The notes under the pieces are model-generated. The model made no database searches, had not been told where the DNA came from, and worked only from the letters and a program-made list of their open reading frames with translations. From the IMG/VR virus record IMGVR_UViG_3300046462_000344, positions 1 to 59,957 of that record: a stretch of DNA of 59,957 nucleotides; one strand, 5' to 3'. Positions 3,961-59,957 of the stretch are shown here, in pieces (position 1 is the first letter of the stretch; every line of letters starts with the position of its first letter). A program made the position numbers and the translations under genes. The DNA comes from a virus.

Positions 3961-6864
3961 TTACCCCTCGAAGTAATCCTTGATCGTCGTGCCGTTGACG
4001 TCGATTTCCAGAAGGTACTGGGTCATCGAGGCGTGGATGGTGCCCGACGCCATGCAGCCGTGGACCACCTTGACGCCGAACTCCTTATCCAGAGCTTTCG
4101 TGATCGGGGTGCGGGCGTAGCCCCGGTGCTTCAACCACTCATACAGCCGGGCGCGGGTGAAGCGGATCAGGCCGTCCTCGACCCCGACTTGGACATAGAT
4201 CGTGTCGAGGCGGGTGTCGTCGTTGAGCACCTTGATCCCGGCGGGCTTGCCCTGCTGAATCCAGATGCGGTTGGTCCTGATGGTGTGCCGCGCCCGCATG
4301 TCGTTGAGGAATCCGCCCAGCACTTCCGAGATATTGATCGCGGTATTGAAGTCGACCGGCTGGCTGTTGCGCTGGGCCCGCATGTCGGACAGCGTCGCCA
4401 GCATGAACGCCTTGAGCTGATCCTCGTCGATCTGGGTGAGCTGCAGGAAGTTGGAGTAGCGCGCCCCCATGAGGACGCATGCGATGAGCGAAACCCAGAA
4501 GCGCTCGTCCGGCCGGGACTGAGTTTCGACTTCGAGCGCCACCAGCATGTCGCCGACTTCGCGGTCGATCTGGGTCGAGTTCTGCCCGAGGAACTCCGAG
4601 TAGGCGGTGCCGGCATAGCCGTAGTTGTGATTGAGCTGGCCGATCAGTCGGCTGGCGATGCCGTTGGCGATCTGCCCGTTACTGCCGGGAGTAACGGTGT
4701 ACTCGAACACGCGATAGAGCCCTGCGGTGGTGGTCTTGGTTTCGCGGGTGATCTGATCCATCAGGCTGTCGTTGCTGGCCACGACCAGCAGGGTCTGCCA
4801 GTCCCCGGACTGCCGCTGAGACGCCGCCTGAGTGAGGCGGGACTTCTCGCGCCCCTGAGCGATCGAGAACGTCATGTTGACGAATTTCTTGGTGTCTTCC
4901 TCGGTCTTGAGCTCGTCCCAGAACATGGGCAGGGATTTGATTTCGCCGATCTTGTGCATCACGGAATTATAGGTGTCGTCCAGTGACTGCATGGCGCGGA
5001 TGGGATGCCCCCACACAGCTTGCGCGACCTTGAGGGCGGTGCTCTTGCCGATGCCCGACTCGGTCGAGTAGGCCGACATGAGCATGCCCGACTGGCCGGT
5101 GAAGCGCACCAGCGGCGCGCCGAACGAGGCGGCGAGGATCGCGTTGAGGTCCGGGCGTCCCTGATCGGTGATGAGCCGCGCCGCGGTGATCCACGGCTGC
5201 AAGTTACCCGAGGGGGTATATTGGCGGGAGAGCACAGGGTCGGCGCTGGCCGAGGGGCGCTCGCCGGTCGGGGCCACGACGCGCCCGCCGTAGGAGAAGC
5301 CTTCGATCCTGCCGTGGTCATCCGCCCAGCCGAAGGGCGCGGACTTGACCACGGCGGTCTTGATGCTCTGCAGTTGCTTGGAGAAGGCCACGAAAAATTC
5401 CCTCACAGCTTTGGTTTCATGCTCGTGCAGGAAGATCGACTGGTTCGCCAGAGCTTTGGGCAGACCTTCCTTTGCTGAAAACAGGTTACACGGGAGGGTA
5501 ACCTTTTCCTCGCGTCCCGTCGATTGGCGGGTGGTGAAGTGCAGGGTCCATTCCCCGTTGCGGGGGTCGAGCCATGCGTCTTCGATGGGATAGGGGCAGA
5601 TCGGGACCATCGTGGTCGCGCCGTCGTCGGTCGTGACCATGCGCCGGATGATCCCGTCCGCGCCGCGCACGTAGCCCGCGGGCATGTCGGCCTGAGAGGA
5701 CGGCGGGGCGTTAGGGAAGGGCGTGGAGGCGTCAGGAGCGCCGTGGAAGGGGGTCTTGCCGTCCTTGAGCTTCGGGCACGTCTGGCACCCCTTAGCGCCC
5801 GCCGCAGCTATGGATGCGCAGGAGGTCCAGCCAAAGTTCTTGCGGGCCTTCTCGCGCTCCTTGCGATCGAACAGGGCGTCAGTATCCTCGACGGCGTAGT
5901 TCTGGTGCCCGCAAGCCATGCGGTGGGCGTCGGGGCGCGGGTCGTCGGTGAAGGTGGCGAGCAGGGTGGTGAGGTTCCACAGCGGCTGCTGGAAGGCTTT
6001 ACCGCCGGTGGTAATCGCCTCGTCGATGAACGGGCATCCCTTGGCGACGTCATCCAGATGCACAGGGAGCGCGCTGCCGGAGCCAATGCCCGCAGATAAT
6101 TCATCTTCCTCCTTGATCGGCTGCTTGGGCGGGAGGGGCTGTTCCGTAAGCTTGACCATATATGGTTCGAGCGCCGTTTGAAGGCGCTCTACCGAATAGT
6201 CGAAGTCGAGGGGGGTTCCGGCGATCCGGGCTGGCTTGGGAGGGCTGTGCTTGTGGTTGAAGGTGTCCGGCAACCGCAGGATGCGCGCCGCGTCGATGGT
6301 GCATTGGGTGTCGCACTTGAAGCCGTGCCGGCGCGTCGCCTCGACCAGCGCCTCGGCCAGCGGCTTCCATTCGTGCGGGGCCAGAACCTCGGCCATGACC
6401 CAATAGACGTGCAAGCCGCCAGAGCCGGTCGCGACGAACATGGTGGGCTTCGGCATGCCGGAAGCCTTGAGGAACTCCCCTAGCGCGGCGACGGCTTCCT
6501 TGGTGTCCGCATAGCCGCCTTCCTTGACGTCCACGTCGATGAACAGGGCCTTGAGGCCGACAGCGAACTCGATGGCGCGGACGGCCGTGAGGAAAGTTTT
6601 ACCCTCGGCGGTAGTCCGTGTTTCGGCTTCGCGCTGCGAGGACATGCAGACATAAATATCTTTGACGCCGGGCTGCTTGATGGTCCACGACAGGGCGCGG
6701 ATCGCCTCATCGACCGTGCGGCAGGGCTTGCCCCTGAACACAGACCGATCAAAGCCTTGGCCTTGGAATTTCCAGTGAAGGTTTACGAAGGCGTCGACTC
6801 CGGTTGCGGACGCCCACGGCACGACTCGGGTGAGATATGTTCGTGCTTGGGTGAAATCATTCAT
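3961..6864 (-). CDS. Primase-polymerase/DUF927-type helicase fusion
   Basis: 967 aa. Residues 100-215 resemble an archaeo-eukaryotic-type primase: FIDVD (D110, D112), SGGLHVYW (H152) and CTIDAARILRLPD (D190, R193, R196). Cysteines at 317, 348, 359 and 362 could form a zinc knuckle. Residues 395-700 resemble DUF927/phage D5-like helicases, with Walker A ESGIGKST (601-608) and Walker B LPMFWDE (644-650). It should unwind DNA and prime synthesis at the phage fork. It is the last gene of the leftward operon. Its final codons and TAA stop are formed by a palindromic repeat (3961-3976), and other copies lie inside the gene at 4679, 5204, 5486 and 6599. A strong hairpin separates it from the upstream ssDNA-binding-like gene. 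Confidence 0.85.
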   Translation of the reverse strand: MNDFTQARTYLTRVVPWASATGVDAFVNLHWKFQGQGFDRSVFRGKPCRTVDEAIRALSWTIKQPGVKDIYVCMSSQREAETRTTAEGKTFLTAVRAIEFAVGLKALFIDVDVKEGGYADTKEAVAALGEFLKASGMPKPTMFVATGSGGLHVYWVMAEVLAPHEWKPLAEALVEATRRHGFKCDTQCTIDAARILRLPDTFNHKHSPPKPARIAGTPLDFDYSVERLQTALEPYMVKLTEQPLPPKQPIKEEDELSAGIGSGSALPVHLDDVAKGCPFIDEAITTGGKAFQQPLWNLTTLLATFTDDPRPDAHRMACGHQNYAVEDTDALFDRKEREKARKNFGWTSCASIAAAGAKGCQTCPKLKDGKTPFHGAPDASTPFPNAPPSSQADMPAGYVRGADGIIRRMVTTDDGATTMVPICPYPIEDAWLDPRNGEWTLHFTTRQSTGREEKVTLPCNLFSAKEGLPKALANQSIFLHEHETKAVREFFVAFSKQLQSIKTAVVKSAPFGWADDHGRIEGFSYGGRVVAPTGERPSASADPVLSRQYTPSGNLQPWITAARLITDQGRPDLNAILAASFGAPLVRFTGQSGMLMSAYSTESGIGKSTALKVAQAVWGHPIRAMQSLDDTYNSVMHKIGEIKSLPMFWDELKTEEDTKKFVNMTFSIAQGREKSRLTQAASQRQSGDWQTLLVVASNDSLMDQITRETKTTTAGLYRVFEYTVTPGSNGQIANGIASRLIGQLNHNYGYAGTAYSEFLGQNSTQIDREVGDMLVALEVETQSRPDERFWVSLIACVLMGARYSNFLQLTQIDEDQLKAFMLATLSDMRAQRNSQPVDFNTAINISEVLGGFLNDMRARHTIRTNRIWIQQGKPAGIKVLNDDTRLDTIYVQVGVEDGLIRFTRARLYEWLKHRGYARTPITKALDKEFGVKVVHGCMASGTIHASMTQYLLEIDVNGTTIKDYFEG

Positions 6865-8974: not shown

Positions 8975-10528
8975 TCAGGTTTGCTTCGAGGTTTCCTCCT
9001 TGAACATATCCAGCAACATGGTTTGCACCCGCTGCTTGGCCCTGAGTTTGGCGTACATCCTCTTCTCCGCATCAGTGGCCTGATACATGAGAATAAGCTG
9101 CTTGTGCTTCTGCCCGATGCGCCGGATGCGGGCGTTGGCCTGCTCGAAAATCTCGAGGTCGGGCATGGGCGAGAACCAGATGATCGTGTCGGCGGCGGTC
9201 AGCGTGAGGCCGTGCGCCATGACCTTGGGATGCGCGATGAGCACCCTGATCTTGTTGGTCTGCTGGAACGTCGCGAACAGGCGCGAGCGCTCTCCCTGCG
9301 GGGTGGCCCCGGACACGACGGCAAAGTCGAAGTTCTCCTTCAACAGCCGCGTCCCGATGCCGCCCAGCGCGTGGATATAGGGCACGAACACGATGGCCTT
9401 GTTCTCCACCGCGTCGAGGTCCTCGACCAAGCGATCGAGCCGGGCGTCGTTGTCCAGCGCGATGGTTTTCTTGTCGCGGGTGTAGACCCATCCGCAACTG
9501 ATCTGCAGCAGCTTGGAGAGCACCGCGCCGGCGTTCATGGCGGTGATCTCGCTCGCTTGGATTTGCGCGTAGGCCTTGAGCTTCATCGCCTGATAAATCT
9601 GCTTCTGCTTGGCCCCCATTTCGATATCGACCGGCAGCTCTACCCCCTCGGGTAACTCCACAATGTCGTCCAGCGTGAACCTCACGCTCGGGTGCATCAG
9701 CGCATGCACCTTGTCGAGCGCGTCGGGCTTGGGGAACCACTGGAACTGAGTGATCCGCACCATGACTTCATCGCGGAAATGCGTGAAGTATTTCGGCGTG
9801 GTCGCGGGCGTGACGACGGTGGCCTGAGCCCATGCGTCGGTCGGCGCGCGCGGCGTCGGCGTCCCGGTCAGCCCCCACACCCAGCCCATGTGCGCGGCGA
9901 GGCTGCGCATGACCTTGGTGCGGATCGCGGTCCCGTTCCTGAATGACGCCAGCTCGTCGATGATCAGGTGCGTCAGATCATTTTGCAGCAGCAGATTCTC
10001 GATGATCGTCGACACGCCGTCGTGGTTGATGACGAAGATTTCCGCATCGCTGGCGAGCGCCCGCAGCCGCTGCGCGCGCGTCCCGTGCAGGACCGCCACC
10101 TTGCGGTGGGGGAGCGTGTTGAACACCTCACGCGCCCATGTGAAGTTCAGCGTCGAGAGAGGGGCGACCACCAGCAGCTTACCCGCGAGGGTATTCTTGC
10201 GGAGGAAGTCCCACGCCCAGAGAGCCGCCTTCGTCTTGCCGGTGCCCATGCCGTTCAGGCAGTAGGCGCGGGGACTCGTGGTGAGCATCGCCGCGGTGAG
10301 GCGCTGCGCATTGTAGGGCGATCCCCCGCACCAGTCGTATTGACTGAGGATGGGGCTCGGCACATCGAACCCTAGATTGCGGAGCAGCCGGGTTTCATCC
10401 AGACCGTGGGGCATCACGATCAGGTTTTGCCCATGCAGGACGAGCGGCTTGGCGTTGGGGAACAGGTTCGCCAAGTCCTGCCGGAATGGGGCGACGAGCG
10501 CCTTGTGGTTGTAATTGACGTGGATCAT
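8975..10528 (-). CDS. SNF2/SWI2-type superfamily 2 helicase
   Basis: 517 aa. Motif I is GMGTGKT (93-99), motif II IIDELAS (about 191-197, a DEAx variant), motif III GLTGTP, and motif VI-like QANARIRRIGQ lies in the C-terminal RecA lobe, all characteristic of SNF2-family translocases. Phage members are thought to act in replication, recombination or displacement of bound proteins. The gene overlaps the upstream VRR-NUC gene by 4 bp (ATGA), so the two are translationally coupled and may act together. Repeat copies at 9640 and 10179 are translated inside the ORF. Confidence 0.9.
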   Translation of the reverse strand: MIHVNYNHKALVAPFRQDLANLFPNAKPLVLHGQNLIVMPHGLDETRLLRNLGFDVPSPILSQYDWCGGSPYNAQRLTAAMLTTSPRAYCLNGMGTGKTKAALWAWDFLRKNTLAGKLLVVAPLSTLNFTWAREVFNTLPHRKVAVLHGTRAQRLRALASDAEIFVINHDGVSTIIENLLLQNDLTHLIIDELASFRNGTAIRTKVMRSLAAHMGWVWGLTGTPTPRAPTDAWAQATVVTPATTPKYFTHFRDEVMVRITQFQWFPKPDALDKVHALMHPSVRFTLDDIVELPEGVELPVDIEMGAKQKQIYQAMKLKAYAQIQASEITAMNAGAVLSKLLQISCGWVYTRDKKTIALDNDARLDRLVEDLDAVENKAIVFVPYIHALGGIGTRLLKENFDFAVVSGATPQGERSRLFATFQQTNKIRVLIAHPKVMAHGLTLTAADTIIWFSPMPDLEIFEQANARIRRIGQKHKQLILMYQATDAEKRMYAKLRAKQRVQTMLLDMFKEETSKQT

Positions 10529-10836
10529 GTGCGGTCCAGTGGACTGGTTGAAGAGAGCCAGAGATAGAGCGCCTCTAGCTGGCCGTTGACGCCGTCGATA
10601 GTGAACACGATGCCCTCGGCGCGCTTGATGTCCGCGATGATCGACTCCTGCCGGTCGGTGGGCTTCGCGCCGGGGCGCTTCGCCTCGATGGAGAAGAACA
10701 GGCCGTGGTAGCAGCAGATGTAATCGAGCGCCGTCTTGCCGTAGCCGCCCGGCACCGGCATGTGATACCAGACGCCATGCTCCCGCAGCATCTTCGATAT
10801 CTTGTCCTTGACCTTACCCTCGGGAGTAGACGCCAT
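10525..10836 (-). CDS. VRR-NUC domain nuclease
   Basis: 103 aa, the usual size of phage stand-alone VRR-NUC proteins. The PD-(D/E)XK core is visible as G-x-ALDYICCYHGLFFSIEAKRPG, with the Asp of ALDY and the E-x-K of IEAK as metal and catalytic residues, followed by the conserved T..Q helix (PTDRQ). These enzymes cleave branched DNA or act as partner nucleases of SNF2 helicases. The gene is coupled to the helicase by ATGA overlap. Confidence 0.9.
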   Translation of the reverse strand: MASTPEGKVKDKISKMLREHGVWYHMPVPGGYGKTALDYICCYHGLFFSIEAKRPGAKPTDRQESIIADIKRAEGIVFTIDGVNGQLEALYLWLSSTSPLDRT

Positions 10837-10838
10837 GA

Positions 10839-11045
10839 TCAGCGGCCCTCACGCTGATTGAGCGGCCGGACAGGGTAGAACATATCCTTGTGCAGCTTGG
10901 CGGTCTTGAGCTCGGAGTGCTCCCCGAAGGTGAGCCAGACGGCGGTGATCTCGTCGCCGTCGATAGCATGGACGGTCATCTTGGGACTGCCGGAATTGAG
11001 GTGGACGACGTCGCCGATCTTGAGTGTGGTGGTTTCGTTAGGCAC
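10839..11045 (-). CDS. DUF2158/YodC-like small protein
   Basis: 68 aa when started at GTG 11045. The start is supported by GGAG overlapping the end of the upstream nuclease gene (TGA 11047-11049). The sequence KIGDVVHLNSGSPKMTVHAI fits the DUF2158 consensus (a small beta-barrel-like protein of unknown function, found in bacteria and phages), followed by GDEITAVWLTFGE. A longer in-frame reading to 11138 would overlap the nuclease gene deeply and is less likely. Confidence 0.7.
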   Translation of the reverse strand: MPNETTTLKIGDVVHLNSGSPKMTVHAIDGDEITAVWLTFGEHSELKTAKLHKDMFYPVRPLNQREGR

Positions 11046-11046
11046 T

Positions 11047-11733
11047 TCATTCTCCGTGGTGGGGACAGGACGTGACGGGGCACCAGTTGCGGCACAGGTA
11101 TCCCGGCTTGGCGGGGTAGGATTGCGTCTCGGCGGCATGCTGGAGCAGCCTTACCCTCGGCAGTAACGAGGTCCAGAACGCGGGCATTTCGGTGCGATCG
11201 AAAACCTGCGAGGTGGTGGCGTCCTCCTTGAGCCAGATGAACTCAGATCGGATCTTGCGCACGGTGGGATAGCGGGCGAACACACACGACGCCATCAGCG
11301 CGAGCTGGCACGAATCCTCGACGATCTTGCCGGTCTTCCAGTCCACGACCAGCGCGACCGCCTTGACCAGCTTCACCACGTCCCCGATGCCGCGATACCA
11401 TGCGAAGTCGGAGCGCCAGTCGCAGACCCCGAAACTCTTGTCGATCGCCATTTTCTGCTCGACCATCAGCTCGTCGGCCGGGATGGCGAGGATGCGGGCG
11501 CACCAGTGCTCATAGGCCTCCATTCCCTTGGGGAGCGGGACGCCTTTTGAGAGGCGGAGAGCCATCGCTTTATGGACGGCTTGGCCCCATTTGATGTTGT
11601 CGCTTTCTTCCTCAACAATGTCCCGCGCCACATCGACATGGAAGTGCCGCTTTGGGCATGTTTCATAGTTCTTGAGCTTGGAGTACGACCAAGCAAAACT
11701 CTTAGGCCGATTGCGGATTGTAACAGGGGGCAT
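11047..11733 (-). CDS. RecB/Cas4-type PD-(D/E)XK exonuclease with Fe-S cluster cysteines
   Basis: 228 aa. Motifs: SYSKLKNYETCPKRHF (C26), H54 in GQAVHKAM, D118 in GIGDVV, D131-x-K133 in VVDWKTGK, and Q143 in the QLALMA helix. Three cysteines near the C-terminus (C214, C218, C223 in LCRNWCPVTSC), with C26, match the four-cysteine 4Fe-4S pattern of Cas4/AddB-type nucleases. It is likely a 5'-3' or end-processing exonuclease for replication or recombination. It overlaps the upstream gene by 32 bp. The start cannot be much later, because the conserved SYSKLKNYETCP motif begins at residue 16. Confidence 0.9.
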   Translation of the reverse strand: MPPVTIRNRPKSFAWSYSKLKNYETCPKRHFHVDVARDIVEEESDNIKWGQAVHKAMALRLSKGVPLPKGMEAYEHWCARILAIPADELMVEQKMAIDKSFGVCDWRSDFAWYRGIGDVVKLVKAVALVVDWKTGKIVEDSCQLALMASCVFARYPTVRKIRSEFIWLKEDATTSQVFDRTEMPAFWTSLLPRVRLLQHAAETQSYPAKPGYLCRNWCPVTSCPHHGE

Positions 11734-12193
11734 TGAGGTCCTCGTCTTGGTTCAGTAGCTGGATGATTTTGTCGTCTGGGCAATGTTTCAAAAGCTCCAA
11801 TGCGAGGCGCGCAATCTTGCGCTGTTGCAGGTGATCCTTGGCTCGGGCGATGACCAGCTCCGCGAACATCGCATCGCTGTCCTTGGCGAAGGTGGAGAGC
11901 AGCCTGCGGGTTTCCGCAAGCGAGCCCTCCCCGAACAATTCATTGACGCGGGTCCGCGTCTTCTCCATGCCATCCACGCCCTTGCGGACCTGATTGACGA
12001 CCTCGCCCAGCTTACCCTCGTAGGTAAGATGCTTGACCTCGTACTCGCCCTGATCGCCGATGAGCCGCACGACATGGGCGGCGAGAAGCTGGATGTCGCT
12101 GGCGTCGACAGCCAGCGGGAGCTTGCGGCCCACGCAATACTCCCAGAGCTGCCGGCGAACGTGGTTCGAGATTTCGCCTTCATGGGTCATCAC
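11702..12193 (-). CDS. Unknown early protein, 163 aa
   Basis: Predominantly helical, with no recognised family. It begins MMTHEGEISNHVRRQLWEY and overlaps the next upstream gene by 4 bp (ATGA), and its end overlaps the nuclease start by 32 bp, so expression is coupled to nuclease production. A repeat copy (12012-12027) is translated inside the ORF. Confidence 0.6.
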   Translation of the reverse strand: MMTHEGEISNHVRRQLWEYCVGRKLPLAVDASDIQLLAAHVVRLIGDQGEYEVKHLTYEGKLGEVVNQVRKGVDGMEKTRTRVNELFGEGSLAETRRLLSTFAKDSDAMFAELVIARAKDHLQQRKIARLALELLKHCPDDKIIQLLNQDEDLNAPCYNPQSA

Positions 12194-12654
12194 AGCATGA
12201 GCCTCACTTGCGACACCAGCCGATCCGACGGGTAGAGCTCGTCGTCATCCTCAAGCACCAGCGCAGTACCCTTGGAAGTAATGAACACCGCGACCTTGTC
12301 GCCCAGCTTGCGGGCGGCGATCAGCTCGACACCCTTATCCGCAAGCTCATGGATGTTCAGGCGCAAGCGCATGATCAGGCTTTCCAGATTGACGTGCGGG
12401 GGGTTCTTGGGTTTGGGCGATCCCACCGCCCCCACCGGCTTCGCCATGCTGAACGTGCTGTAAGGGCTGATGTTCATGTCGGCGTCCATGAGCAGCGGGC
12501 CATTGGCGTTCATCATGGGGTCGTTCAGCATCATCGCTTGCTGGACTGCCTGTCGGGCCTGATCCATCTCCTCGGCCAAGGACAGCCGGGGGTTGTAAGT
12601 ATTTCTGGCCCGCTCGACGACTGATGGGGGTTTAGGCTTGCCGAACATGCTCAT
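12190..12654 (-). CDS. Unknown early protein, 154 aa
   Basis: The N-terminal 90 residues are Pro/Met/Asn-rich and probably flexible. The C-terminal 65 residues look like a compact alpha-beta domain (LIMRLRLNIHELADKGVEL... KVAVFITSKGTALVLEDD). The start overlaps the wHTH gene end (ATGA, 12651-12654). No function can be assigned. Confidence 0.55.
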   Translation of the reverse strand: MSMFGKPKPPSVVERARNTYNPRLSLAEEMDQARQAVQQAMMLNDPMMNANGPLLMDADMNISPYSTFSMAKPVGAVGSPKPKNPPHVNLESLIMRLRLNIHELADKGVELIAARKLGDKVAVFITSKGTALVLEDDDELYPSDRLVSQVRLML

Positions 12655-12959
12655 CTGACGATCTCTCTAGTGGTGGGTTGCGGGCTGGCGCGGGCAATAA
12701 GATCCCGCGCCCTATCCCTCATTTCGGGGGTGAGAACGTAACCCACATCATAGCACGTCTTGACGTCGATGTGGAACGGCTTGAGCTTTTTTCGCAGCCG
12801 GCACACCGCCATCTTGGCGTCGGATGCGATCAGGTATCGGTCCTCGATACCCTCGGCGGTAACGGCGGGCTGGGACAGCAGGAGCTGCATGAGCCGGCCT
12901 TGGTTCCACGACAACTCGAACGTCGTGCAAATGATCACATGCTCACGGTCATCCGCCAT
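12651..12959 (-). CDS. Stand-alone OmpR/PhoB-type winged-helix DNA-binding protein
   Basis: 102 aa from ATG 12959. The core VCRLRKKLKPFHIDVKTCYDVGYVL reproduces the recognition helix and wing of response-regulator effector domains (theme: LRKKL..... I.TV.G.GY.L) without a receiver domain. The preceding helix is MQLLLSQPAVTAEGIEDRYL. Such single-domain proteins occur in alphaproteobacterial phages as presumed transcription regulators. It is a candidate binder of the dispersed palindromes, though that is speculation. It overlaps the 58-aa gene upstream. Confidence 0.65.
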   Translation of the reverse strand: MADDREHVIICTTFELSWNQGRLMQLLLSQPAVTAEGIEDRYLIASDAKMAVCRLRKKLKPFHIDVKTCYDVGYVLTPEMRDRARDLIARASPQPTTREIVR

Positions 12960-13125
12960 CCTTCTTGCTCCCGGTTGCGTCGCCCGGCGGGGGTTCGAGC
13001 GGCCATAGAACATCCGCGATGGCCGTGACGCGCTTGAGCCACTTCTCGAAGGTTGCGTAATTGGCGAACGTCGCGCCCTCGACTGTGAGTTTGTCCGGAA
13101 CATCCTCGGCGACATGCAGTCTCAT
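12949..13125 (-). CDS. Unknown small protein, 58 aa
   Basis: Found by reading the gap: ATG at 13125 after GGGAGTGGGAA, stop TGA at 12949-12951. The sequence starts MRLHVAEDVPDKLTVEGATF and ends in a Lys/Asp/Gly tail. Both ends overlap neighbouring genes by a few bases, the pattern of real genes in this operon. No domain recognised. Confidence 0.55.
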   Translation of the reverse strand: MRLHVAEDVPDKLTVEGATFANYATFEKWLKRVTAIADVLWPLEPPPGDATGSKKDGG

Positions 13126-13364
13126 TTCCCACTCCCATAGCTGTCTTCGCCACGGCGCTTGGCGGCGGCGGTGATGGTCTGGTTGCGTGATAGGAGCTCA
13201 CTGTTGAGCTCGTCGCCCCGGTTCAGGGCGTCGCGGATGCGCTCGGCTGACGTGAAGCTCGGCACGGTGGCGACGATGATGAATGAAGTATCTTGTTCGA
13301 TCTTTCGCCGGGCGACGAAGTGCTTTTCAGTTTTACCCGGAAGGGTAATGATCGCATATTTCAT
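13122..13364 (-). CDS. Unknown small early protein, 80 aa
   Basis: ATG 13364 gives MKYAIITLPGKTEKHFVARR, a beta-hairpin followed by helices; the ORF also extends upstream to 13400. A repeat copy (13333-13348) is translated within it. The gap upstream holds a candidate promoter (13410-13438), so this may be the first gene of a sub-operon running through the wHTH and nuclease genes. Confidence 0.55.
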   Translation of the reverse strand: MKYAIITLPGKTEKHFVARRKIEQDTSFIIVATVPSFTSAERIRDALNRGDELNSELLSRNQTITAAAKRRGEDSYGSGK

Positions 13365-13571: not shown

Positions 13572-13787
13572 TCACGACTTTTCGCTTGGTTTCGTCGTCT
13601 CTTCCTTCACGTCGCACGTCCATGTAGTGGTCGTGCAGACGCTTACCGTGAACGTCTTCTCGCATCCGTCGCACTCCATCTCCACGAGCCTCTCGTCATA
13701 GAACCAACTGTCGTCGGCGGTGTATTGCCTCCCGCAGTAAGGACAGAGCGGCCCTTCCTCGGAGAACGTCTCGCGATCCTCGGTCAC
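13572..13787 (-). CDS. Small zinc-ribbon protein, 71 aa
   Basis: GTG start at 13787 overlaps the polymerase stop (GTGA), with GGAG 8 bases upstream. CPYC (residues 14-17) and CDGC (about 40-43) form a two-CxxC zinc ribbon. Such proteins beside DNA polymerase genes are common in phages, but their role is unknown. A decayed repeat overlaps the region (13725-13740). Confidence 0.65.
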   Translation of the reverse strand: MTEDRETFSEEGPLCPYCGRQYTADDSWFYDERLVEMECDGCEKTFTVSVCTTTTWTCDVKEETTKPSEKS

Positions 13788-15649
13788 TTGCAAGCTCCAT
13801 AGTTGACGCCCACGCCCACCTCGGCGGCGAGCGGCAGGTCGTGGCCCCACTTCGGCCGGCGCGACATTTCCTCAAGCAGGATCGGGCGGATCACATCGAC
13901 CAGATCGTCCGGCACGACATAGACCAGTTCGTCGTGGACCTGATGCGCCATCTGCAGATCGAACACAGAGCAGCGGCTGCGGATGCGCATGGCGGCTTCC
14001 ATGACGGCGACGCGGTCGAGCGCCTGAACAATATTCTCGAGCAGCTTGCCGCCGTAGATGAACTTGGTCTTACCCGCGAAGGTAAATTTCCACGCCCCAT
14101 CCTCGAAGCGGAGGTCGTCGTAATAGAGCCGCAAGCCGTTGGGCAGGAGCACCCCCCGGTACTGGATGCGGACAGGGCCCCACGGGATATCGAGGTTCTT
14201 GTCGCTCGCCATCGACGGCAGCAAGCCTTGCAGGAACTCCCATGTGCCTTTGATCTTGTCGTACTTCCGGCGGTAAAGCCCGACGACGCGGCCAGACTCT
14301 TCGATCGTGATCTCCAGCCCCTCGGCCGCGCCTTGGATGCGCACGGTGTCTTGGAACCGGGGCGGACCCATCTGGAAGCCCAGCCCCAGAATCGAGATTT
14401 TCCCCAGCAGACCCGCGAGGAAGTCGGACTTGACCTTCTTGCGGTCCACCGGACGCCCGTAAATGTCGGAGGCGAACGACGAGTAGACGTCCGCGCCGGC
14501 GGCGAACAGCGCCACGAGGTCGTCCTGCCCGGCGAGCCACGCCACGAGGCGCGCCTCGATCTGCGAGGCGTCCACCTTCATCACCTTGTGCCCCTGATGC
14601 GCCACCATGGCGTCGCGGATGGTGGTGTCGCCGCGACTGGGGAGATTCTGCATGTTGAGCGACCAGTCGCCCGAGAAGCGATGGGTGTGCGCGCCGGAGA
14701 ATTTGAGCGGCACCGGGAGCCAGCCGTCGCCCTTACCCGGCAGGGTAAGATTTGAAATGTCGATGAACCTCTGGGTGCGGGTTTCCTCCAGTGTGCTCTT
14801 ATGCCCCAGACGCGCCGCCACCAGCGCCTGAACCTCGGGGTTGTCGTGCTCTTCCAGCGCGATCAGGCCGGGATCGGTCTTGGCGAAGGCGTAGACCAGC
14901 TCGCCGGTGGTTGGCGAGGTCTTGGTGGGCGGCTCCACGCCAAGCAGCCTGAGCGCCCCCGCGAAGCGGTCCGCGGACATGAGCAGCTCGGGGCTGTCGA
15001 GCCCTACCCTCGAGAGTAACCCCTGCTTCGCCGCCTTCACCTCGGCGAGGTGGACGGCCAGCTTGTTCTTGTCGGCCTGAAACTGCGGCTTGGTGGCGCA
15101 GCGAATGACCATGTCGTTGACGATGAACTCGGCGGGCGGGAAGTCTGGGCGCAGCTTCTTGAAGATGCCGCGGCAGAGCTCCACGTCGTTGATGCAATAC
15201 TGGGCGTAGGCGGGCATCATCCCCGCAGCGCGGATCGCCTCCCGGCCCATGCCCACGACGTTGTGGACAGTGCCCCCCTTGACGCCCAATTCGAGGTGCT
15301 TGGCCACGGCGTCGAGCGACACGCGCTTGGACTTGTGGACGACGAGCGCGCGCGCCATGCTCATCGTGTCGATCATCAGCTTCGGCGAGAAATCAAAAAT
15401 CCACTCTGTCACACACGCATCGAAAAGCGCATTGTGTGTGACCATCGCAATATCGTTGGCCGGCATGGTGCGGAGGAAGTCGCGAACTTCGTCGTGACCC
15501 TCCAGCCAGAACGGCGCGCCGTCGCCCATGGCTACCCCGCAGCCGATCGTCTCGAAGCGGGGGTCAAGAACATATTGGATCGGCGTCATCTTGCGGAGGC
15601 TATACTCCTGAGAGTAATAGGTTTCAAAGTCTAGGAATAGGTATTTCAT
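13784..15649 (-). CDS. Family A DNA polymerase with 3'-5' exonuclease domain
   Basis: 621 aa. The exonuclease is intact: D7/E9 in FLDFET, N73...D77 in HNALFD, Y151/D155 in YCINDVE. Polymerase motif A is KVDASQIEAR (D360), motif B GKISILGLGFQMG (K417) and motif C HQVHDELVY (H572-D573-E574). There is no 5'-nuclease domain, as usual for phage enzymes. The short length suits a phage-type PolA. The start is set by repeat 15656-15671, whose centre gives TGAGG upstream of the ATG. A highly structured 130-bp leader lies upstream. Repeat copies at 14070, 14733, 15004 and 15602 lie inside the gene. Confidence 0.96.
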   Translation of the reverse strand: MKYLFLDFETYYSQEYSLRKMTPIQYVLDPRFETIGCGVAMGDGAPFWLEGHDEVRDFLRTMPANDIAMVTHNALFDACVTEWIFDFSPKLMIDTMSMARALVVHKSKRVSLDAVAKHLELGVKGGTVHNVVGMGREAIRAAGMMPAYAQYCINDVELCRGIFKKLRPDFPPAEFIVNDMVIRCATKPQFQADKNKLAVHLAEVKAAKQGLLSRVGLDSPELLMSADRFAGALRLLGVEPPTKTSPTTGELVYAFAKTDPGLIALEEHDNPEVQALVAARLGHKSTLEETRTQRFIDISNLTLPGKGDGWLPVPLKFSGAHTHRFSGDWSLNMQNLPSRGDTTIRDAMVAHQGHKVMKVDASQIEARLVAWLAGQDDLVALFAAGADVYSSFASDIYGRPVDRKKVKSDFLAGLLGKISILGLGFQMGPPRFQDTVRIQGAAEGLEITIEESGRVVGLYRRKYDKIKGTWEFLQGLLPSMASDKNLDIPWGPVRIQYRGVLLPNGLRLYYDDLRFEDGAWKFTFAGKTKFIYGGKLLENIVQALDRVAVMEAAMRIRSRCSVFDLQMAHQVHDELVYVVPDDLVDVIRPILLEEMSRRPKWGHDLPLAAEVGVGVNYGACK

Positions 15650-15659
15650 TGCATATTAC

Positions 15660-15783
15660 CTCAAGGGGTAGCGTATGAGTTGACATGAGGGCTCCTGAGC
15701 CCTATATTGCGGGCAGTCGGCGAGACTACTCCGGGTGGAGTCAGGGGCGGCAGGGTGTGGTGGCCTAGCCGCCCCAAACTATG
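15660..15783. other. Structured intergenic leader upstream of the DNA polymerase gene
   Basis: This 124-bp stretch contains nested inverted repeats. An outer pair TGACAT (15681-15686) / ATGTCA (15781-15786) encloses AGGGCT/AGCCCT (15688-15703), ACTCC/GGAGT (15728-15741), and a strong stem GGGGCGGC-AGG / CCT-A-GCCGCCCC (15744-15775) with a 9-nt loop. In the leftward direction it would be the polymerase 5' UTR or an attenuator. In the rightward direction it follows a near-consensus promoter. No ORF is credible here. Confidence 0.7.
15680..15708 (+). promoter_or_regulatory. Near-consensus sigma70 promoter facing against the operon
   Basis: TTGACA (15680-15685), 17-bp spacer, TATATT (15703-15708): 11 of 12 consensus bases at ideal spacing. 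The spacer holds the AGGGCTCCTGAGCCCT palindrome, a possible operator. Transcription would start near 15715 and run rightward, antisense to the flanking early genes. Confidence 0.65.
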
Positions 15784-15813
15784 TCAGAGCGCCCCCTCGC
15801 GCTTGCGCTTTTT
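15715..15813 (+). ncRNA. Candidate small antisense/structured RNA
   Basis: Starting at the predicted +1, the transcript would fold a 5-bp ACTCC/GGAGT hairpin and the strong GGGGCGGC hairpin. It would then reach AGCGC/GCGCT (15788-15803) followed by TTTTT at 15809-15813, a weak intrinsic terminator. Its 3' end is antisense to the last codons of the 58-aa gene. The terminator part also encodes Lys codons on the other strand and may be coincidence. Hypothesis only. Confidence 0.35.
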
Positions 15814-15960
15814 CAAGCTCTTGTAAGTCGAGGTGACGTCGCGGTCGCCCAGCATGACGCAGAAGAACCTTTGTCCGCGCAGCCGACGCTCGACGAACTT
15901 GACTTCCTCGACGCGCATCAGCACTTCGCATTGCAGGGCTGTGAGGGGACGGTAAGCCAT
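15784..15960 (-). CDS. Unknown small protein, 58 aa
   Basis: ATG 15960 overlaps the upstream stop (TGATG). The sequence MAYRPLTALQCEVLMRVEEV ends in a Lys/Arg-rich tail (KSLKKRKREGAL). The stop codon lies within the ATGTCA arm of the structured leader. No family recognised. Confidence 0.55.
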   Translation of the reverse strand: MAYRPLTALQCEVLMRVEEVKFVERRLRGQRFFCVMLGDRDVTSTYKSLKKRKREGAL

Positions 15961-16694
15961 CAGACCACCGACAGCTTCATGTCCGGGCTCCACGGCACCG
16001 GGATCAGATCGGCGTTGGAGAGGTACAGCCGAACCGGCTCATGCGGCTTTTCCGTCTCGATGGGCGGCAGCATGATCGCCTTGGTGATGGCGGTCGAAGC
16101 ATCCTTGATCCCGGCGCGCAGCTCCGGCGTCATGCGGGGCAGCGTCTTGGGGATGCGGAAGCGTGATAGGCTCTCGGCCAGCCGTTTGCATCGCGCGTCC
16201 TGAGACTCGTTCAGCAGCAGCGTGACCCCCGGCCAGAACAGATGCATCGCCGCGATGGTGTCCGACGAGTGGTAGAGCTCGTCCAGCACGGCGCGGGCGA
16301 TCGCGATCTCCCTCCCGATCTCTACCCGCATCGCCAGCCAAGCGTCGAGCTTGCCCGCCGCCTCCTTACTCTCGGGGGTATCGAACTTGGTCTGGTTCGC
16401 ATACCTCGGCAGCAGGAAGGGCACGTTGCCGCTCGGCGTCGAGATGGTCATGTTGACCGAACAGTTGATCCCGGTCGCATGGTCCTTGCGGTCGATGGTG
16501 ACCGACGACGCCGACGACGACACGTAGGCGATCTCGGTGATGGTGGTGAGCATCTCCCGGTGCTCGGGGCGCACGATGGCCCTGAGCATGTCGTCGTGGG
16601 TCAGGGCGCTCTCCAGATAGTGCATCCGGCGAGCTTGCAGTGTGACGAGAACATTCTGCAGCTCGCGCAGGGTGGAGGGGGTGAAAGCCGGCAT
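15960..16694 (-). CDS. Unknown early protein, 244 aa
   Basis: ATG 16694 is preceded by repeat 16698-16713, whose centre reads GAGGAAG as ribosome-binding site. The protein is mostly alpha-helical in its first 60 and last 130 residues, with a beta-rich middle (VTIDRKDHATGINCSVNMTI). No catalytic motif or signal peptide. It stands immediately downstream of the 28-bp perfect palindrome. Confidence 0.6.
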   Translation of the reverse strand: MPAFTPSTLRELQNVLVTLQARRMHYLESALTHDDMLRAIVRPEHREMLTTITEIAYVSSSASSVTIDRKDHATGINCSVNMTISTPSGNVPFLLPRYANQTKFDTPESKEAAGKLDAWLAMRVEIGREIAIARAVLDELYHSSDTIAAMHLFWPGVTLLLNESQDARCKRLAESLSRFRIPKTLPRMTPELRAGIKDASTAITKAIMLPPIETEKPHEPVRLYLSNADLIPVPWSPDMKLSVV

Positions 16695-16782: not shown

Positions 16783-17052
16783 TCACCATTCGGTGGAGAC
16801 TTCCACCTTGAGGTTGAAATTGACTTCGATGTAGGCGCTGATGAAATCGTGCAGATCGCTTGCTGCGGGTGATGCCTCCTCTATGATGACAATGGGCGCT
16901 CTCGAACAGTCGAGGGTGCTGACCAGCACATCGACGCAATGCAGGTCAGCCCAGTTGATGGCCCCGCTCGGACGCGGGACCTCCTTCTTAGCGGCCATGA
17001 TGGCGCGCTCGGCGTAGCTGCGGATCTTCTCCGCCCGCTGCTTGGTGATCAC
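16783..17052 (-). CDS. Unknown protein, 89 aa
   Basis: GTG start at 17052 overlaps the VWA gene stop (GTGA); the ORF is open further upstream only as a shadow of that gene. The sequence VITKQRAEKIRSYAERAIMA is followed by a beta-alpha pattern with two Cys residues. Translational coupling to the VWA protein suggests a functional link, but the family is unknown. Confidence 0.55.
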   Translation of the reverse strand: MITKQRAEKIRSYAERAIMAAKKEVPRPSGAINWADLHCVDVLVSTLDCSRAPIVIIEEASPAASDLHDFISAYIEVNFNLKVEVSTEW

Positions 17053-18368
17053 ACCGGGATCTCCACGATGTCCCCGAACGGCGCTCCGACGCCCTTGGAG
17101 ATGGAGCCCCAGATCACCGGATAGCTCGGGCGCTCCGCAGGGAAGGACCCGTACATATCCGTGAGGTAGACCAGCGCGTCGACCTGCGGGATACCCTCGG
17201 CGGTAATCCACTCGAACACCGGCTCGAAGGAAGTGCCGCCGCCACCGGGAGCGCCCTTGGCGCGGATGACGTTCAGGTCGCTCATCTCATCGAGCTCATC
17301 GACGCGATGGACCTTGGCGTCGCACCACACAAGGCGCACTTCCCGCGGGCGGACGTCCTCGAGAATGCCCGACAGCTCGCCCATGAAGCGGTTGATCACA
17401 TCGTTGCCGATACTTCCGGAAGTATCGACGGCGACGACCACGCACTCCGCGCCGAACCCCTTGCGCCCCGGCGCGCCGATGCCCCGCACGATCAGCCGGC
17501 GATCCAGCTTGCGCCAGTCGTAGGCGTCGTTGCCCAGCCGCCGGGCGAAGAGAGCGCGGATCTTGTCCTGCCAGTCCACGCGCGGCTCCAGCAGCTCGCC
17601 GAGGAAGCGCTCCAGCGCCGCAGGGAGCTTCCCCTGCGCCTTGGCGCTCTGCGCGGCCGCAGCGATGGCCATGCCCCACTCCGCCTCGTTGCGGTCGTTG
17701 GACGCCGTCTGGGGGTCCTTGCCCTCGCCCTGTCCCGGATCGAGATGGAGGTCGAACCGCTTGCCGCCCCCCGGCCCCTTGCCGCCGCCTCCGCCGCCCT
17801 TGCATTGCTTGAACACCTTGGCGTAGGTGTCGATGGCGGAATCCTTGCCGGTGGCGATGGCGGTGTCGTGCAGCCAGTCCTTGTTGAACTTGCCGATGTT
17901 GGACTGGATCAGCATGTCGTTGATGACCAGATCCTGCGCCGTGTTCATGATCTCTCCGTCGTAGGGGAGGCTCTTCCCGTTGGGGAAACTTACCTTCCCG
18001 CGTAACCGGAACATCAGCCCCTGCCCGCAGTGGTTGAACATGCAGTGGGCGATTTCGTGGGCGATCGCGAACACCCGCTCATGCAGGGTGTACTTGAAGA
18101 ACGTATCGGGATTGAGGAACAGGTTCACCCCGTCGGTCGCGGCGATGGGAATGTCCTTGGTGAAGAACGCCTTGTCGTTGCCGGCGCTCCCGCTCATCAT
18201 GGTGTAGAGGATGTGCGAGAAGGCCGGGCATCCCCACAGCAGGGCGGCGCGGGTTTCGGTCCACGCCTTGTCCTGCGCCGGGGTCAACTGGACGTAGTTG
18301 AACTTGACGGCCTTGGCCTTGATCCTGCCGAGGTCCTCGATGGCTTGCTTGGTTGTGGTGGTCATCAC
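17049..18368 (-). CDS. VWA-like/metallopeptidase protein (DUF2201 type), MoxR partner
   Basis: 439 aa. The N-terminal domain carries AIAHEIAHCMFNH with HEIAH at 104-108, a zincin motif. A Gly-rich linker (190-203) follows. The C-terminal VWA-like domain has the MIDAS sequence VAVDTSGSIG (DTSGS 315-319). This architecture is typical of the DUF2201 proteins encoded with MoxR AAA+ ATPases, and a MoxR gene lies 3 kb upstream in the same operon. The pair may act as a metal-dependent chaperone or remodelling machine on host or virion proteins. The start overlaps repeat 18369-18384, which supplies AGGAG and the stop codon of the preceding gene. Confidence 0.85.
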   Translation of the reverse strand: MMTTTTKQAIEDLGRIKAKAVKFNYVQLTPAQDKAWTETRAALLWGCPAFSHILYTMMSGSAGNDKAFFTKDIPIAATDGVNLFLNPDTFFKYTLHERVFAIAHEIAHCMFNHCGQGLMFRLRGKVSFPNGKSLPYDGEIMNTAQDLVINDMLIQSNIGKFNKDWLHDTAIATGKDSAIDTYAKVFKQCKGGGGGGKGPGGGKRFDLHLDPGQGEGKDPQTASNDRNEAEWGMAIAAAAQSAKAQGKLPAALERFLGELLEPRVDWQDKIRALFARRLGNDAYDWRKLDRRLIVRGIGAPGRKGFGAECVVVAVDTSGSIGNDVINRFMGELSGILEDVRPREVRLVWCDAKVHRVDELDEMSDLNVIRAKGAPGGGGTSFEPVFEWITAEGIPQVDALVYLTDMYGSFPAERPSYPVIWGSISKGVGAPFGDIVEIPV

Positions 18369-21366: not shown

Positions 21367-22437
21367 TCAGATGCGGCCGATGGCGGCGACCAGCGAAGAG
21401 TTGTTCTGGCACCAACGCATGAAAGCTGGCGTGTTGATCAACTGCGGATCGCGCTTGATCGTCGCCTTGGCGAAGGTGACCGAGAACTCCTTCGGCAACC
21501 GCTCGACATAGGTGATGACCGGATCGACGTCCTTGACGTTGACCCGCGCCGCCAGATTGAAGACGACGAGCATCTGCGCGTCGCTCTTGTTGGGCACCCG
21601 GATGGTGGTGGGCTTGGCGATGATGTCCTTGTAGTCGGGCATCTCCTGACCCAGACGGATGCTGGCGAAGAACTGAACCGCAGCGCCGGCCCCGATCATG
21701 CCCGACACTTCCTCCACGGTGCAGGGATCGCTGGGCAGCTTGTCACCCTCGAGGGTAATGGCCCGAAGGTACTCGTCGGCCCGCACGACGGACCTTGGAG
21801 TGGCCCACGGCCCCTGCTTCTCCGGCACACCATCCGAGAAGACGATGTTGGAGTTCTGGTTGACGAAGGTGGTCGTCTCCGGCGTCACGCCGTTCTGCAC
21901 CGCCCAGTTGGTCCAGCTCTCCAGATCGTCCGTCACGTCGATCTCCATGCGACGGTTGATCAGATGGTCCAGCTCCTTCGTTGAGCCCGAGCGATCGGAT
22001 GCGCGGTTGCCCGCACCCCAGACGACCCAGCCCGGCGGCAGCTTGTGCGAAGCCAAGCGTCCCGACTCCGCGGCCTCGCCGAGGATCTTCTTCTCGTCCA
22101 CGCCGCACTTGTCCATCTCGTCGATGAACACGATGCCGCCGTCATAGGCTTCGAGCGGCAAGCCCTCGTCGGTGGTCCACCAGAAGGGACGGGTGAACTC
22201 CGAGTGCGGGATGCCGTCCCGCGTGGTGGGCACGAGGTAGCCGGTGGCGTCGGTGAGCAGCAGCGCCGCGCCGTTGACCACGCTCATGCCGATCCGCTTG
22301 CCGGTTAGCTTGGCGATGACGGCGCGCGACGCCACGATGGTCGTGGTCTTGCCACGGCCCGGAGCCGACTTGAGGTAGATCGAGACGCCAGCCTTATAGT
22401 AGCCGGGGATGCGGTTGATAATGTCGTCGAGTTTCAT
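21367..22437 (-). CDS. MoxR-type AAA+ ATPase
   Basis: 356 aa. Walker A is KSAPGRGKTTT (core GRGKT 27-31), Walker B GGIVFIDEMDK (D106-E107). Downstream, GWVVWGAGNRASDRSG supplies the sensor-1 region and LINRRMEID the box VII/arginine-finger region, as in MoxR/RavA-like ATPases. The partner VWA/DUF2201 gene lies downstream in the same operon. The complex would couple ATP hydrolysis to remodelling of an unknown target. The upstream repeat 22447 is 10 bp from the start, which has an AAGGA ribosome-binding site. Confidence 0.88.
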   Translation of the reverse strand: MKLDDIINRIPGYYKAGVSIYLKSAPGRGKTTTIVASRAVIAKLTGKRIGMSVVNGAALLLTDATGYLVPTTRDGIPHSEFTRPFWWTTDEGLPLEAYDGGIVFIDEMDKCGVDEKKILGEAAESGRLASHKLPPGWVVWGAGNRASDRSGSTKELDHLINRRMEIDVTDDLESWTNWAVQNGVTPETTTFVNQNSNIVFSDGVPEKQGPWATPRSVVRADEYLRAITLEGDKLPSDPCTVEEVSGMIGAGAAVQFFASIRLGQEMPDYKDIIAKPTTIRVPNKSDAQMLVVFNLAARVNVKDVDPVITYVERLPKEFSVTFAKATIKRDPQLINTPAFMRWCQNNSSLVAAIGRI

Positions 22438-42373: not shown

Positions 42374-45830
<3,457 letters not shown>

Positions 45831-58800: not shown

Positions 58801-59957
58801 CGAAATCCCGAAGCGCGTCGAATCCGCGCCCAAGACCGGCAAGGCGCTGTTCAAGGAAGGCGGAGAGACGGAGGCCGCGCCGCCGCCGGACCATTTGGCG
58901 TTCCTGCGCACGGTGCAGGAGCTGGTGCGGGATATTGGCGACCGCCCCAACGACCCGCGTGTGCTGGATCGCATCCATACCTTCATGGGTAATGAGGTCA
59001 TGGCCCGCGCCAACGACTTCTCTCTGATGCGGGAGACGCGCGCTGTCGAGGGCGGCGCTGGGCATGCGTCGTTCGATGAGGCGCGGCGCGGCGTCTCCGA
59101 CGAATACGAGCGTGAGGCCGGTCGCGCCCATGGCGACGTGGAGCGCACGGAAAAGGACAGGGAAGCTGACCTGACGGAGACGGTCGGCCGCAGGTTCCTC
59201 GGCGGCAAGGGCACGATGAAGGATGGGCTTTCCGGAGTCGAGGCGAAGCCGGTCCAGACCACGACGCTGTCCAAGATATTCGAGCATTACCGCGGCACCG
59301 GCAGCTCGGTGCTGACCAAGGCGCTGCGGCCGATGCTGGTCACGCACATCAAGAATCTGGTCGGCGACCTGCCGGTTCACATCGTCACCGCGAAGGACAT
59401 GGCGCGGCTGGTCAAACTCAAGGAAGGCGAGACGCTTCCCAACGCTTACCACGATCCGGTGGGCAAGCAGATCGTCATCCGCGAGGACATCGCCGCGAAC
59501 CGGGAATGGGGCGCGCATGCGGCGGTTCACGAGGCGATCCACTCGATCCTCGAGGACGCCATCGACAACAAGCCGAAGCTCAAGCAGACGATCCGCAACC
59601 TGATGGACGTGGTCCAGAACGAACTGGACCGGGCGCTGGGCAAGGGCTGGGAGAAGGGCGAGCTGGGCGATCACTTCGCTTATGGCCTGACCGACGAGCA
59701 TGAGTTCATGTCGGAGGCGCTGGGCAACCCGCACTTTCAGGATTTGCTTTCCGAGATCCAGATCCCGGCCAGCATGCAGGCTTCGATACCCATGCGCGCC
59801 CCGATCCGCGCCACGGTCAAGACCGTGTGGCAAGCGATGGTCGGCACGGTGCGCGAGGTCCTCGGGCTGCGGGAGAATTTCCACACCACGCTGGAGGGCG
59901 TCCTGCGGGTGGCGCACAGCCTTGAGCGCCCGGAAGCGCCGGGAGTTACCCTCGGAA
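55862..59957 (+). CDS. Giant large polyvalent virion protein, N-terminal part (continues at 1-3521)
   Basis: ORF open from ATG 55862 to the window end; joined through the circular junction it encodes 2,470 aa. About 110-320 has Gly/Ala-rich amphipathic segments. About 370-500 is a Pro/Ala linker. About 640-870 is Lys/Glu/Ala-rich coiled coil with imperfect KAKAEE repeats. About 1180-1300 is a metallopeptidase-like domain with AAVHEAIHS (HEAIH 1223-1227) and DEHEFMSEALGNPHF (about 1278-1292), the HExxH plus E-F-x-x-EA pattern of phage polyvalent-protein peptidases. Expected role: ejected protein acting in the infected cell. Confidence 0.82.
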   Translation, partial: MADAPYDVESAYRALSVDAPAEPDTGTPDKSKQDTGGATFGDWGKNVAGGVVDLARQGTAAGQFAAEGADQPNTTKIMRGLNILLGLGGQSIEESLTPGGKRARNAAILPDAGQASVFEHPLDSAMMKLGGAAVPLAVMAALPESLLAQGAAGGVMQMGQVVDNAITWTNALDDDELKKQAPAYKALREDKGMDEDAARVALHKMQVSGRDLAVHGLVGAATMGALGKAVKAGVPAEGALARAGLGAAEGGVGMGAASVDVASGQAQSDIAAGRAGAKPLSFQDGAHTFFNSVFEGGVLGAGAGLLHGAPKGKDKGKAPGTEVTDAISPPSAETAALGTAADPDGSIAAAQAVAQKQAIHDAIQKTLANHAAPPSAEGAPPAAGAPPAVEAAPVSPAPGDQAAAAGAQGAVAPPGGTPPEVAAAIQRTAPTPAPEAQGAPPAASSAPGRQVPPEVTAAAQRLTEGQVAPAPAEAPPAPAPTAPTTPATPEGVAALKEKTEQAGGVQQEPKAQLAEQRQQLVDGKVPAQFFPKPEGFKKGQKAYAPQPPEGMSVAYTPKGTYHYNPEKTSYSEILKADKTGDTSKILGLGEHSVADVVKESVKTGEPVEAVRQVTAEGTPVKEALAAGKQVPETAAELEKTKPPGGHVETTTPDAAVKEREEGAKSDTEALIEDFDKGVAERQAQREAGEARTEALTAKHAVENAKTPEGKAKAEEVRAKAEAKSKAAEAKHAEAKAARAPKPEAEAPVTPKGKAKAEEIKAKEAPKPEAEAPAKPRVLTDLTAEAKLKADAEAARKAKSESATKTEVRSEASSGPRTTKKQAELIAKGESVSTLHPNPGELEGKAAAKDRENANKVATNVIEAATKEKPAPKPYVDYAEAYAKPRGGTGKAARENQAALAKARQGLADYEAGLKGEGVVRKTGTAVEKETKAATQAEHEAKAKEILAANPPSRLENTSKYIEALHARLKNILQQAKDAGVEIPKRVESAPKTGKALFKEGGETEAAPPPDHLAFLRTVQELVRDIGDRPNDPRVLDRIHTFMGNEVMARANDFSLMRETRAVEGGAGHASFDEARRGVSDEYEREAGRAHGDVERTEKDREADLTETVGRRFLGGKGTMKDGLSGVEAKPVQTTTLSKIFEHYRGTGSSVLTKALRPMLVTHIKNLVGDLPVHIVTAKDMARLVKLKEGETLPNAYHDPVGKQIVIREDIAANREWGAHAAVHEAIHSILEDAIDNKPKLKQTIRNLMDVVQNELDRALGKGWEKGELGDHFAYGLTDEHEFMSEALGNPHFQDLLSEIQIPASMQASIPMRAPIRATVKTVWQAMVGTVREVLGLRENFHTTLEGVLRVAHSLERPEAPGVTLG
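59754..59957. repeat. Terminal redundancy, right copy
   Basis: Same 204 bp as positions 1-204 with C instead of T at 59863. The one-base difference implies either population variation or sequencing error at a contig end. Confidence 0.95.

Follow-up and report, generated by a model that had tools for sequence, protein, structure and literature searches.

Few sRNAs of phages are understood, the majority of them from temperate enterobacterial and Vibrio phages. PreS of lambda and VpdS of VP882 are phage-encoded RNAs that act in trans, while sar of P22 and c4 of P1/P7 are antisense RNAs of temperate phages (PMC12197685). Outside phages, CopA/CopT provides antisense control of plasmid replication (PMC4485353). 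Here we describe a conserved element opposite the leader of a phage DNA polymerase gene, which its conservation in related phages marks as very probably a real small-RNA gene. That it is such a gene and, in addition, represses phage mRNAs in trans has, in our view, about an even chance of being right. In the open-licence literature, we did not come across any RNA of this sort described next to the polymerase gene of a phage.

The window, that is, the whole stretch of DNA analysed, is an IMG/VR phage record of 59,957 bp with a GC content of ~62%. An identical 204-nt direct repeat is present at both of its ends (1-204 and 59754-59957), as expected for a circularly closed or terminally redundant genome. 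No named phage matched the RNA region at the DNA level (megablast); at the protein level, the nearest named relatives belong to the RHph_TM group of Rhizobium phages, with 46% identity for the polymerase and 54% for the VWA gene. The host is presumably an alphaproteobacterium, as suggested by an mmgR-type sRNA in one relative. This mmgR copy (L015:10575-10653, + strand; Rfam suhB, 49 bits) seems to be a second sRNA in this group of phages; besides it, the Rfam scans elsewhere in the window and its relatives returned one tRNA.

The polymerase gene, whose leader lies opposite the small RNA, occupies 13784-15649 on the - strand (family A; Pfam PF00476, PHROG 17). On the same strand, the neighbourhood comprises a 58-aa ORF (15784-15960), which has no family match and is absent from that place in the relatives read, a 244-aa ORF near the RNA locus (15960-16694), a gene for a DUF2201/VWA protein identified by Pfam (17049-18368), and an ATPase gene (21367-22437; PHROG 1297) with the ribosome-binding site (RBS) AGATTACCACCGAGAGTAAGGACAGCAC, whose product is by our reading AAA+/MoxR-like. 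PHROG 1314, to which the 17049-18368 protein belongs, is labelled "HNH endonuclease", and RefSeq phage records carry the same label; this name appears mistaken, since Pfam assigns the protein to the DUF2201 metallopeptidase/VWA type. A rightward late-region gene also encodes collagen-like Gly-X-Y repeats (42829-43751).

Within the polymerase leader, a sigma70-type promoter points rightward (15680-15708, + strand), with TTGACA at 15680-15685 and TATATT at 15703-15708, 17 nt apart. It is the sole 11/12 match in the window, the runner-up reaching 10/12, which bears out an earlier note on this DNA that had singled it out as the strongest such match; its score is also the highest of the whole set of related loci, where a promoter sits in the same place. 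The spacer palindrome reported in the same note, GGGCTCCTGAGCCC, is indeed there (15689-15702), 14 nt long and near-perfect, broken by two central bases alone. We regard it as a possible operator, and its sequence is not conserved at the promoter spacer among relatives. In L106 and L107, an exact copy of a dispersed phage motif occupies the -35/-10 spacer of the RNA promoter, placed as an operator would be.

This motif, an inverted repeat of 16 bp, TTAC-N8-GTAA (consensus TTACYYCCGRRGGTAA), is dispersed over the window at 45 exact sites (for example 8397, 25631, 34854 and 53307), as against 0-2 sites for TTAC/GTAA at any other spacer length. Eighteen sites lie 12 nt or less from an ATG, overlapping the Shine-Dalgarno position, and related phages carry 6-55 copies with a spacing of 8 and/or 7. 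The repeat recalls the stoperators of mycobacteriophages (PMC9283540). A degenerate copy of the dispersed motif (TTACCTCAAGGGGTAG, 15656-15671) contains the Shine-Dalgarno of the polymerase and adjoins the RNA promoter.

If transcription starts 7 nt past the -10 box, the predicted small RNA would extend from 15715 on the + strand to either ~15776 or ~15813. Folding of 15715-15776 to minimum energy (-34.7 kcal/mol, z -2.5; 3/200 shuffles fold as well) yields both the 5-bp hairpin and the 8+3 GC stem already proposed from the letters. The former, H1 (ACUCC-GGGU-GGAGU, 15728-15741), is also recovered by the covariance model R2 described below and is the counterpart of the conserved CUCC-UGUGGGUG-GGAG hairpin, while the latter, H2 (15744-15775), corresponds to the terminator hairpin of the relatives. 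After H2 the window reads AAACTATG; since this copy has lost the U-run, its 3' end is uncertain and the RNA may read on to ~15813. A terminator-like hairpin with T5 (15787-15813; stem 15787-15804, T run 15809-15813) might then serve as a substitute 3' end. The weak terminator of the earlier note exists, but terminator-like sites are barely above chance in this region (12 found vs 8.3 expected), and the conserved terminator is the GC stem at 15744-15775. The antisense overlap with the end of the 58-aa ORF would concern its last codons, and only if the RNA reaches ~15813. Scanning the window and its relatives with Rfam 15 gave no match at gathering score at the RNA locus.

Our search for relatives showed that the element reaches well beyond the window. 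In 26 distinct related phages, the antisense strand between the VWA/DUF2201 and family-A polymerase genes carries H1 followed by a strong GC hairpin; a polymerase-based search led to L002 and L003, a VWA-based search to 14 more loci, and further searches, including a context-blind DNA pattern, added the remainder. Of the 26 members, 21 have the RNA gene in the polymerase leader, where the earlier note had placed it in the window, always antisense and with 13-34 nt between the -35 box and the polymerase start codon. In the other five phages it is 0.3-0.8 kb from the polymerase, with an HNH-like ORF in between in L105 and another ORF in L117. G014 holds a second copy of H1 and terminator (L273:1691-1744, - strand, equivalent to G014:C1:16190-16243), which has no visible promoter and sits between single-stranded-DNA-binding-like and primase-like genes, just before the latter. 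Rhizobium phage RHph_TM3_14A lacks the RNA, though it has neighbouring genes in common with the window. Two local peculiarities were seen among the relatives: L104 seemingly carries H1 twice in tandem (GUUCUCCUGUGGGAAGAAC, CUCUCUGUGGGUGGAGAG) ahead of the terminator (4922-5010, - strand), and the polymerase gene of L017 is in three pieces ~0.9 kb apart (9580-13239), perhaps split by introns or homing endonucleases.

The promoter is a constant part of the family. At the 11 distinct loci with a readable leader, the antisense strand shows TTGA(C/T), exactly 17 nt and a TATNTA-like hexamer, and the invariant columns of their alignment are TTGA, TAT and a few hairpin positions, the spacer being free to vary. 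TTGA(C/T) with the 17-nt spacing was found in 23/26 members, and the mean best promoter score was 8.8/12 on the RNA strand vs 7.0 on the other strand and 7.1 in shuffles. Taken individually, member promoters are often non-significant, and the weight of this evidence comes from their constant place and spacing. Among distant polymerase homologues, 3/79 had such a promoter match in the first 110 nt. The GC hairpin ends 66-96 nt after the -10 box. Outside the window this hairpin usually ends in a U-run, in nearly all relatives, and in 16 members the 8 nt of tail after H2 contain on average 6.0 T on the antisense strand vs 2.2 on the sense strand; the window is the sole member with fewer than 4 T.

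The two stems are supported by covariation. Because MAFFT alignments misaligned them, we seeded a covariance model (R1) with six members and an explicit structure, and it found five members outside its seed, namely L105, L106, L107, L110 and L117 (E 7e-9 to 3e-5). In a 14-member alignment, two-sided changes affected 15 of 17 pairs and 90% of cells were paired; none of 500 shuffles was as good, and all slid versions were beaten on every measure. Because this alignment had been fitted to the model, it is biased in favour of the structure; even so, it stands far apart from the controls. A further model, R2, trained with the window excluded, matched 15727-15782 on the + strand as its best window match (19.9 bits; E 0.015 in 769 kb and 1e-5 in the surrounding 501 bases), whereas the trained members score 42-76 bits. 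The stems are therefore kept in relatives and the window itself is recognized by R2, and the central claim of the earlier note, a rightward promoter before a structured RNA in the polymerase leader, finds strong backing in the conserved promoter, the covarying stems, the U-tails of the relatives and this match. We consider the finding sound on these comparative grounds, which establish promoter, structure, strand and family, and the window's own copy a diverged one.

Four further members (L002, L005, L006 and L013) carry a variant type, UUCCGUGGGG, which R2 does not find; they were assigned by place, promoter and terminator. Several candidates were discarded. DNA-pattern matches in L306, L311, L314, L317 and L324, the last inside a primase-type ORF, were judged coincidental, with common flanking sequence and no promoter in any of them, and a second model match in G018 proved to be a poly-T assembly artefact. 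In 289 alphaproteobacterial genomes, searched with strict filters and without a positive control, the RNA was not found beyond chance terminators; three weak matches (E ~1e-5 per genome) were judged ordinary terminators, with no H1 in their sequence.

The most constant part of the RNA is the loop of H1. While the typical stem is CUCC/GGAG with the loop UGUGGGUG, the 14 aligned members keep GGGU in stems as different as CUUUCC/GGAAAG, CUCUC/GAGAG, AUCC/GGAU and CUCC/GGAG. That the loop stays nearly fixed as the stem varies suggests a partner that is independent of changes in the leader. The 5' arm and loop of H1, CUCCUGUGGGU, are the exact complement of ACCCACAGGAG, which is found at the RBSs of other genes in these phages. 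The pattern ACCCAC-n0-2-GGA occurs 44 times in RNA-bearing phages vs 12.7 in shuffles (12 of the 44 being the RNA loci themselves or copies of them) and 5 times vs 9.0 expected from shuffles in phages without the RNA. Many of these copies are RBSs, a few bases ahead of a start codon. The hexamer ACCCAC by itself is weakly enriched at start codons; the longer complement including GGA gives the clearer signal. The window holds no further exact copy of the H1 complement.

We then compared the predicted duplex energy of each phage's own H1 with all of its RBSs across 19 shared gene families, a post hoc test with heuristic gene starts and related phages. The ATPase (PHROG 1297) ranked first (15 phages, mean percentile 0.16, Fisher p 2.7e-6 post hoc, ~5e-5 after correction for 19 families), followed by a single-stranded-DNA-binding-like family (p 0.007), while the polymerase RBS was not a preferred pairing site (p 0.28 among the 19 families compared). 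Shuffled H1 sequences gave a mean percentile of 0.54 and reached the observed value in 0/60 trials. However, the reversed H1 gave 0.26 and phages without the RNA gave 0.37, so part of the target signal is composition; leaders are A/C-rich in these phages. The ATPase was beyond the 20th percentile in five of the 15 phages: L319, L012, L007 and L104 clearly do not favour it, and G014 (0.17) and G023 (0.16) are borderline.

The most telling single case is L002, in which a variant H1, UCCUUCGUGGGUU, is matched by a variant ATPase RBS, AACCCACGAAGGA, giving a predicted 13-bp pairing of -25.2 kcal/mol vs -14.0 for other H1s. In G006, the single-stranded-DNA-binding-like gene has CCCAAGGAG, a counterpart to the loop UUGGGU. 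The window's own ATPase RBS (gene start 22437, - strand) ranks in the 4th percentile at -16.2 kcal/mol, a moderate prediction.

Considering all the above results, we propose a model in which host RNA polymerase would start at TTGACA-17-TATATT and produce a transcript of ~65-75 nt in the relatives, perhaps of up to 100 nt in the window. Folded into H1 with its G-rich loop and the GC hairpin, as the covariation indicates, the RNA would be terminated in the relatives by the latter. The H1 loop might first pair just upstream of the Shine-Dalgarno in other phage mRNAs; H1 would then open and its CUCC arm would mask GGAG, so that translation falls. Among the predicted targets, the ATPase mRNA, from the same gene cluster, comes first; some phages offer additional candidates in the mRNAs of the single-stranded-DNA-binding-like gene and of the 240-aa gene next to the RNA. 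Put more broadly, a new sRNA family may coordinate early replication genes by pairing its loop with several RBSs, chiefly that of the ATPase, with seed and target co-evolving, a reading drawn from sequence comparison that we advance tentatively, at somewhat less than even confidence.

The location of the gene, in most members directly opposite the polymerase leader, would also suit a cis-antisense RNA resembling CopA/CopT, which would limit the polymerase by pairing with its mRNA leader or through colliding transcription. An RNA encoded opposite that leader is automatically fully complementary to it, and leftward transcription could be impeded by a strong promoter facing it. However, cis pairs could drift freely and the loop is nevertheless near-constant, the gene is displaced from the polymerase in five phages, G014 has its second copy elsewhere, and most loops (UGUGGGUG) lack the YUNR U-turn motif of loop-loop systems (PMC4485353), UUGG occurring only in the UUGGGU variants. 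Together with the indifferent rank of the polymerase RBS, these observations speak against regulation of the polymerase as the main role, one of two proposed in the earlier note, and we rate cis control as a weaker rival of the trans model and an unlikely one. The other proposal, action in trans on host RNA, is favoured as to its mode but, as far as tested, with the phage's own mRNAs as partners. A host RNA or protein could be the main partner if the RNA served, for example, as a sponge for C-rich loops such as the CCCC of CcnA; the likely host class does have RNAs with such loops (PMC8959179), some phage sRNAs are known to act on host genes (PMC12197685), and the G-rich loop is near-invariant, yet the RBS signal internal to the phages requires no host partner, and we find this quite improbable.

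Two other explanations concern the strand and the window itself. Were the leftward strand the functional one, H1 would serve the polymerase mRNA as an RBS or leader-peptide element, and the promoter facing right would be incidental. H1 does contain GGAG on that strand, the second G014 copy directly precedes a start codon, and a very short ORF follows in L010 and L012; but most members have no start codon at the proper spacing, U-tails and promoters lie on the opposite strand, and the G-U pairs of the stems fit a rightward RNA, which makes this reading most unlikely. It is also very unlikely that the family is real and the window copy decaying and inactive: the low R2 score, the T-poor tail and the moderate ATPase pairing would agree with decay, but the window has the best promoter of the set and both stems are intact.

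For this RNA family, roughly two dozen diverged homologues are available, along with a covariance model and a specific, testable pairing prediction. If the pairing is true, a dsDNA phage would tune the translation of its own replication genes, presumably to its benefit, through a single sRNA gene. The alphaproteobacterial mmgR/suhB (Rfam RF00519) is likewise a two-hairpin RNA of ~75 nt, and no sequence or model match to it was found at the polymerase-leader locus. With CopA/CopT our RNA shares, in most members, an antisense position to the leader of a replication gene, its own promoter, stem-loops and a terminator; the likeness is mainly one of location, as here the loop is near-invariant across strongly diverged phages, the gene is sometimes off the polymerase and the polymerase RBS is not preferred. 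Similarly to sar and c4, it would be a short phage RNA pairing with phage mRNAs; their targets are antirepressor or nearby immunity genes, whereas the best predicted target here is an ATPase mRNA several kb away. PreS and VpdS are likewise short phage-encoded RNAs thought to pair with mRNAs, PreS being tied to replication as well. By our reading, the RNA probably works like these trans-acting phage sRNAs, a class claim we limit to "phage sRNA"; unlike them, it would carry its seed in a hairpin loop of its own, lies opposite a polymerase leader and is predicted to target mRNAs of its own replication cluster.
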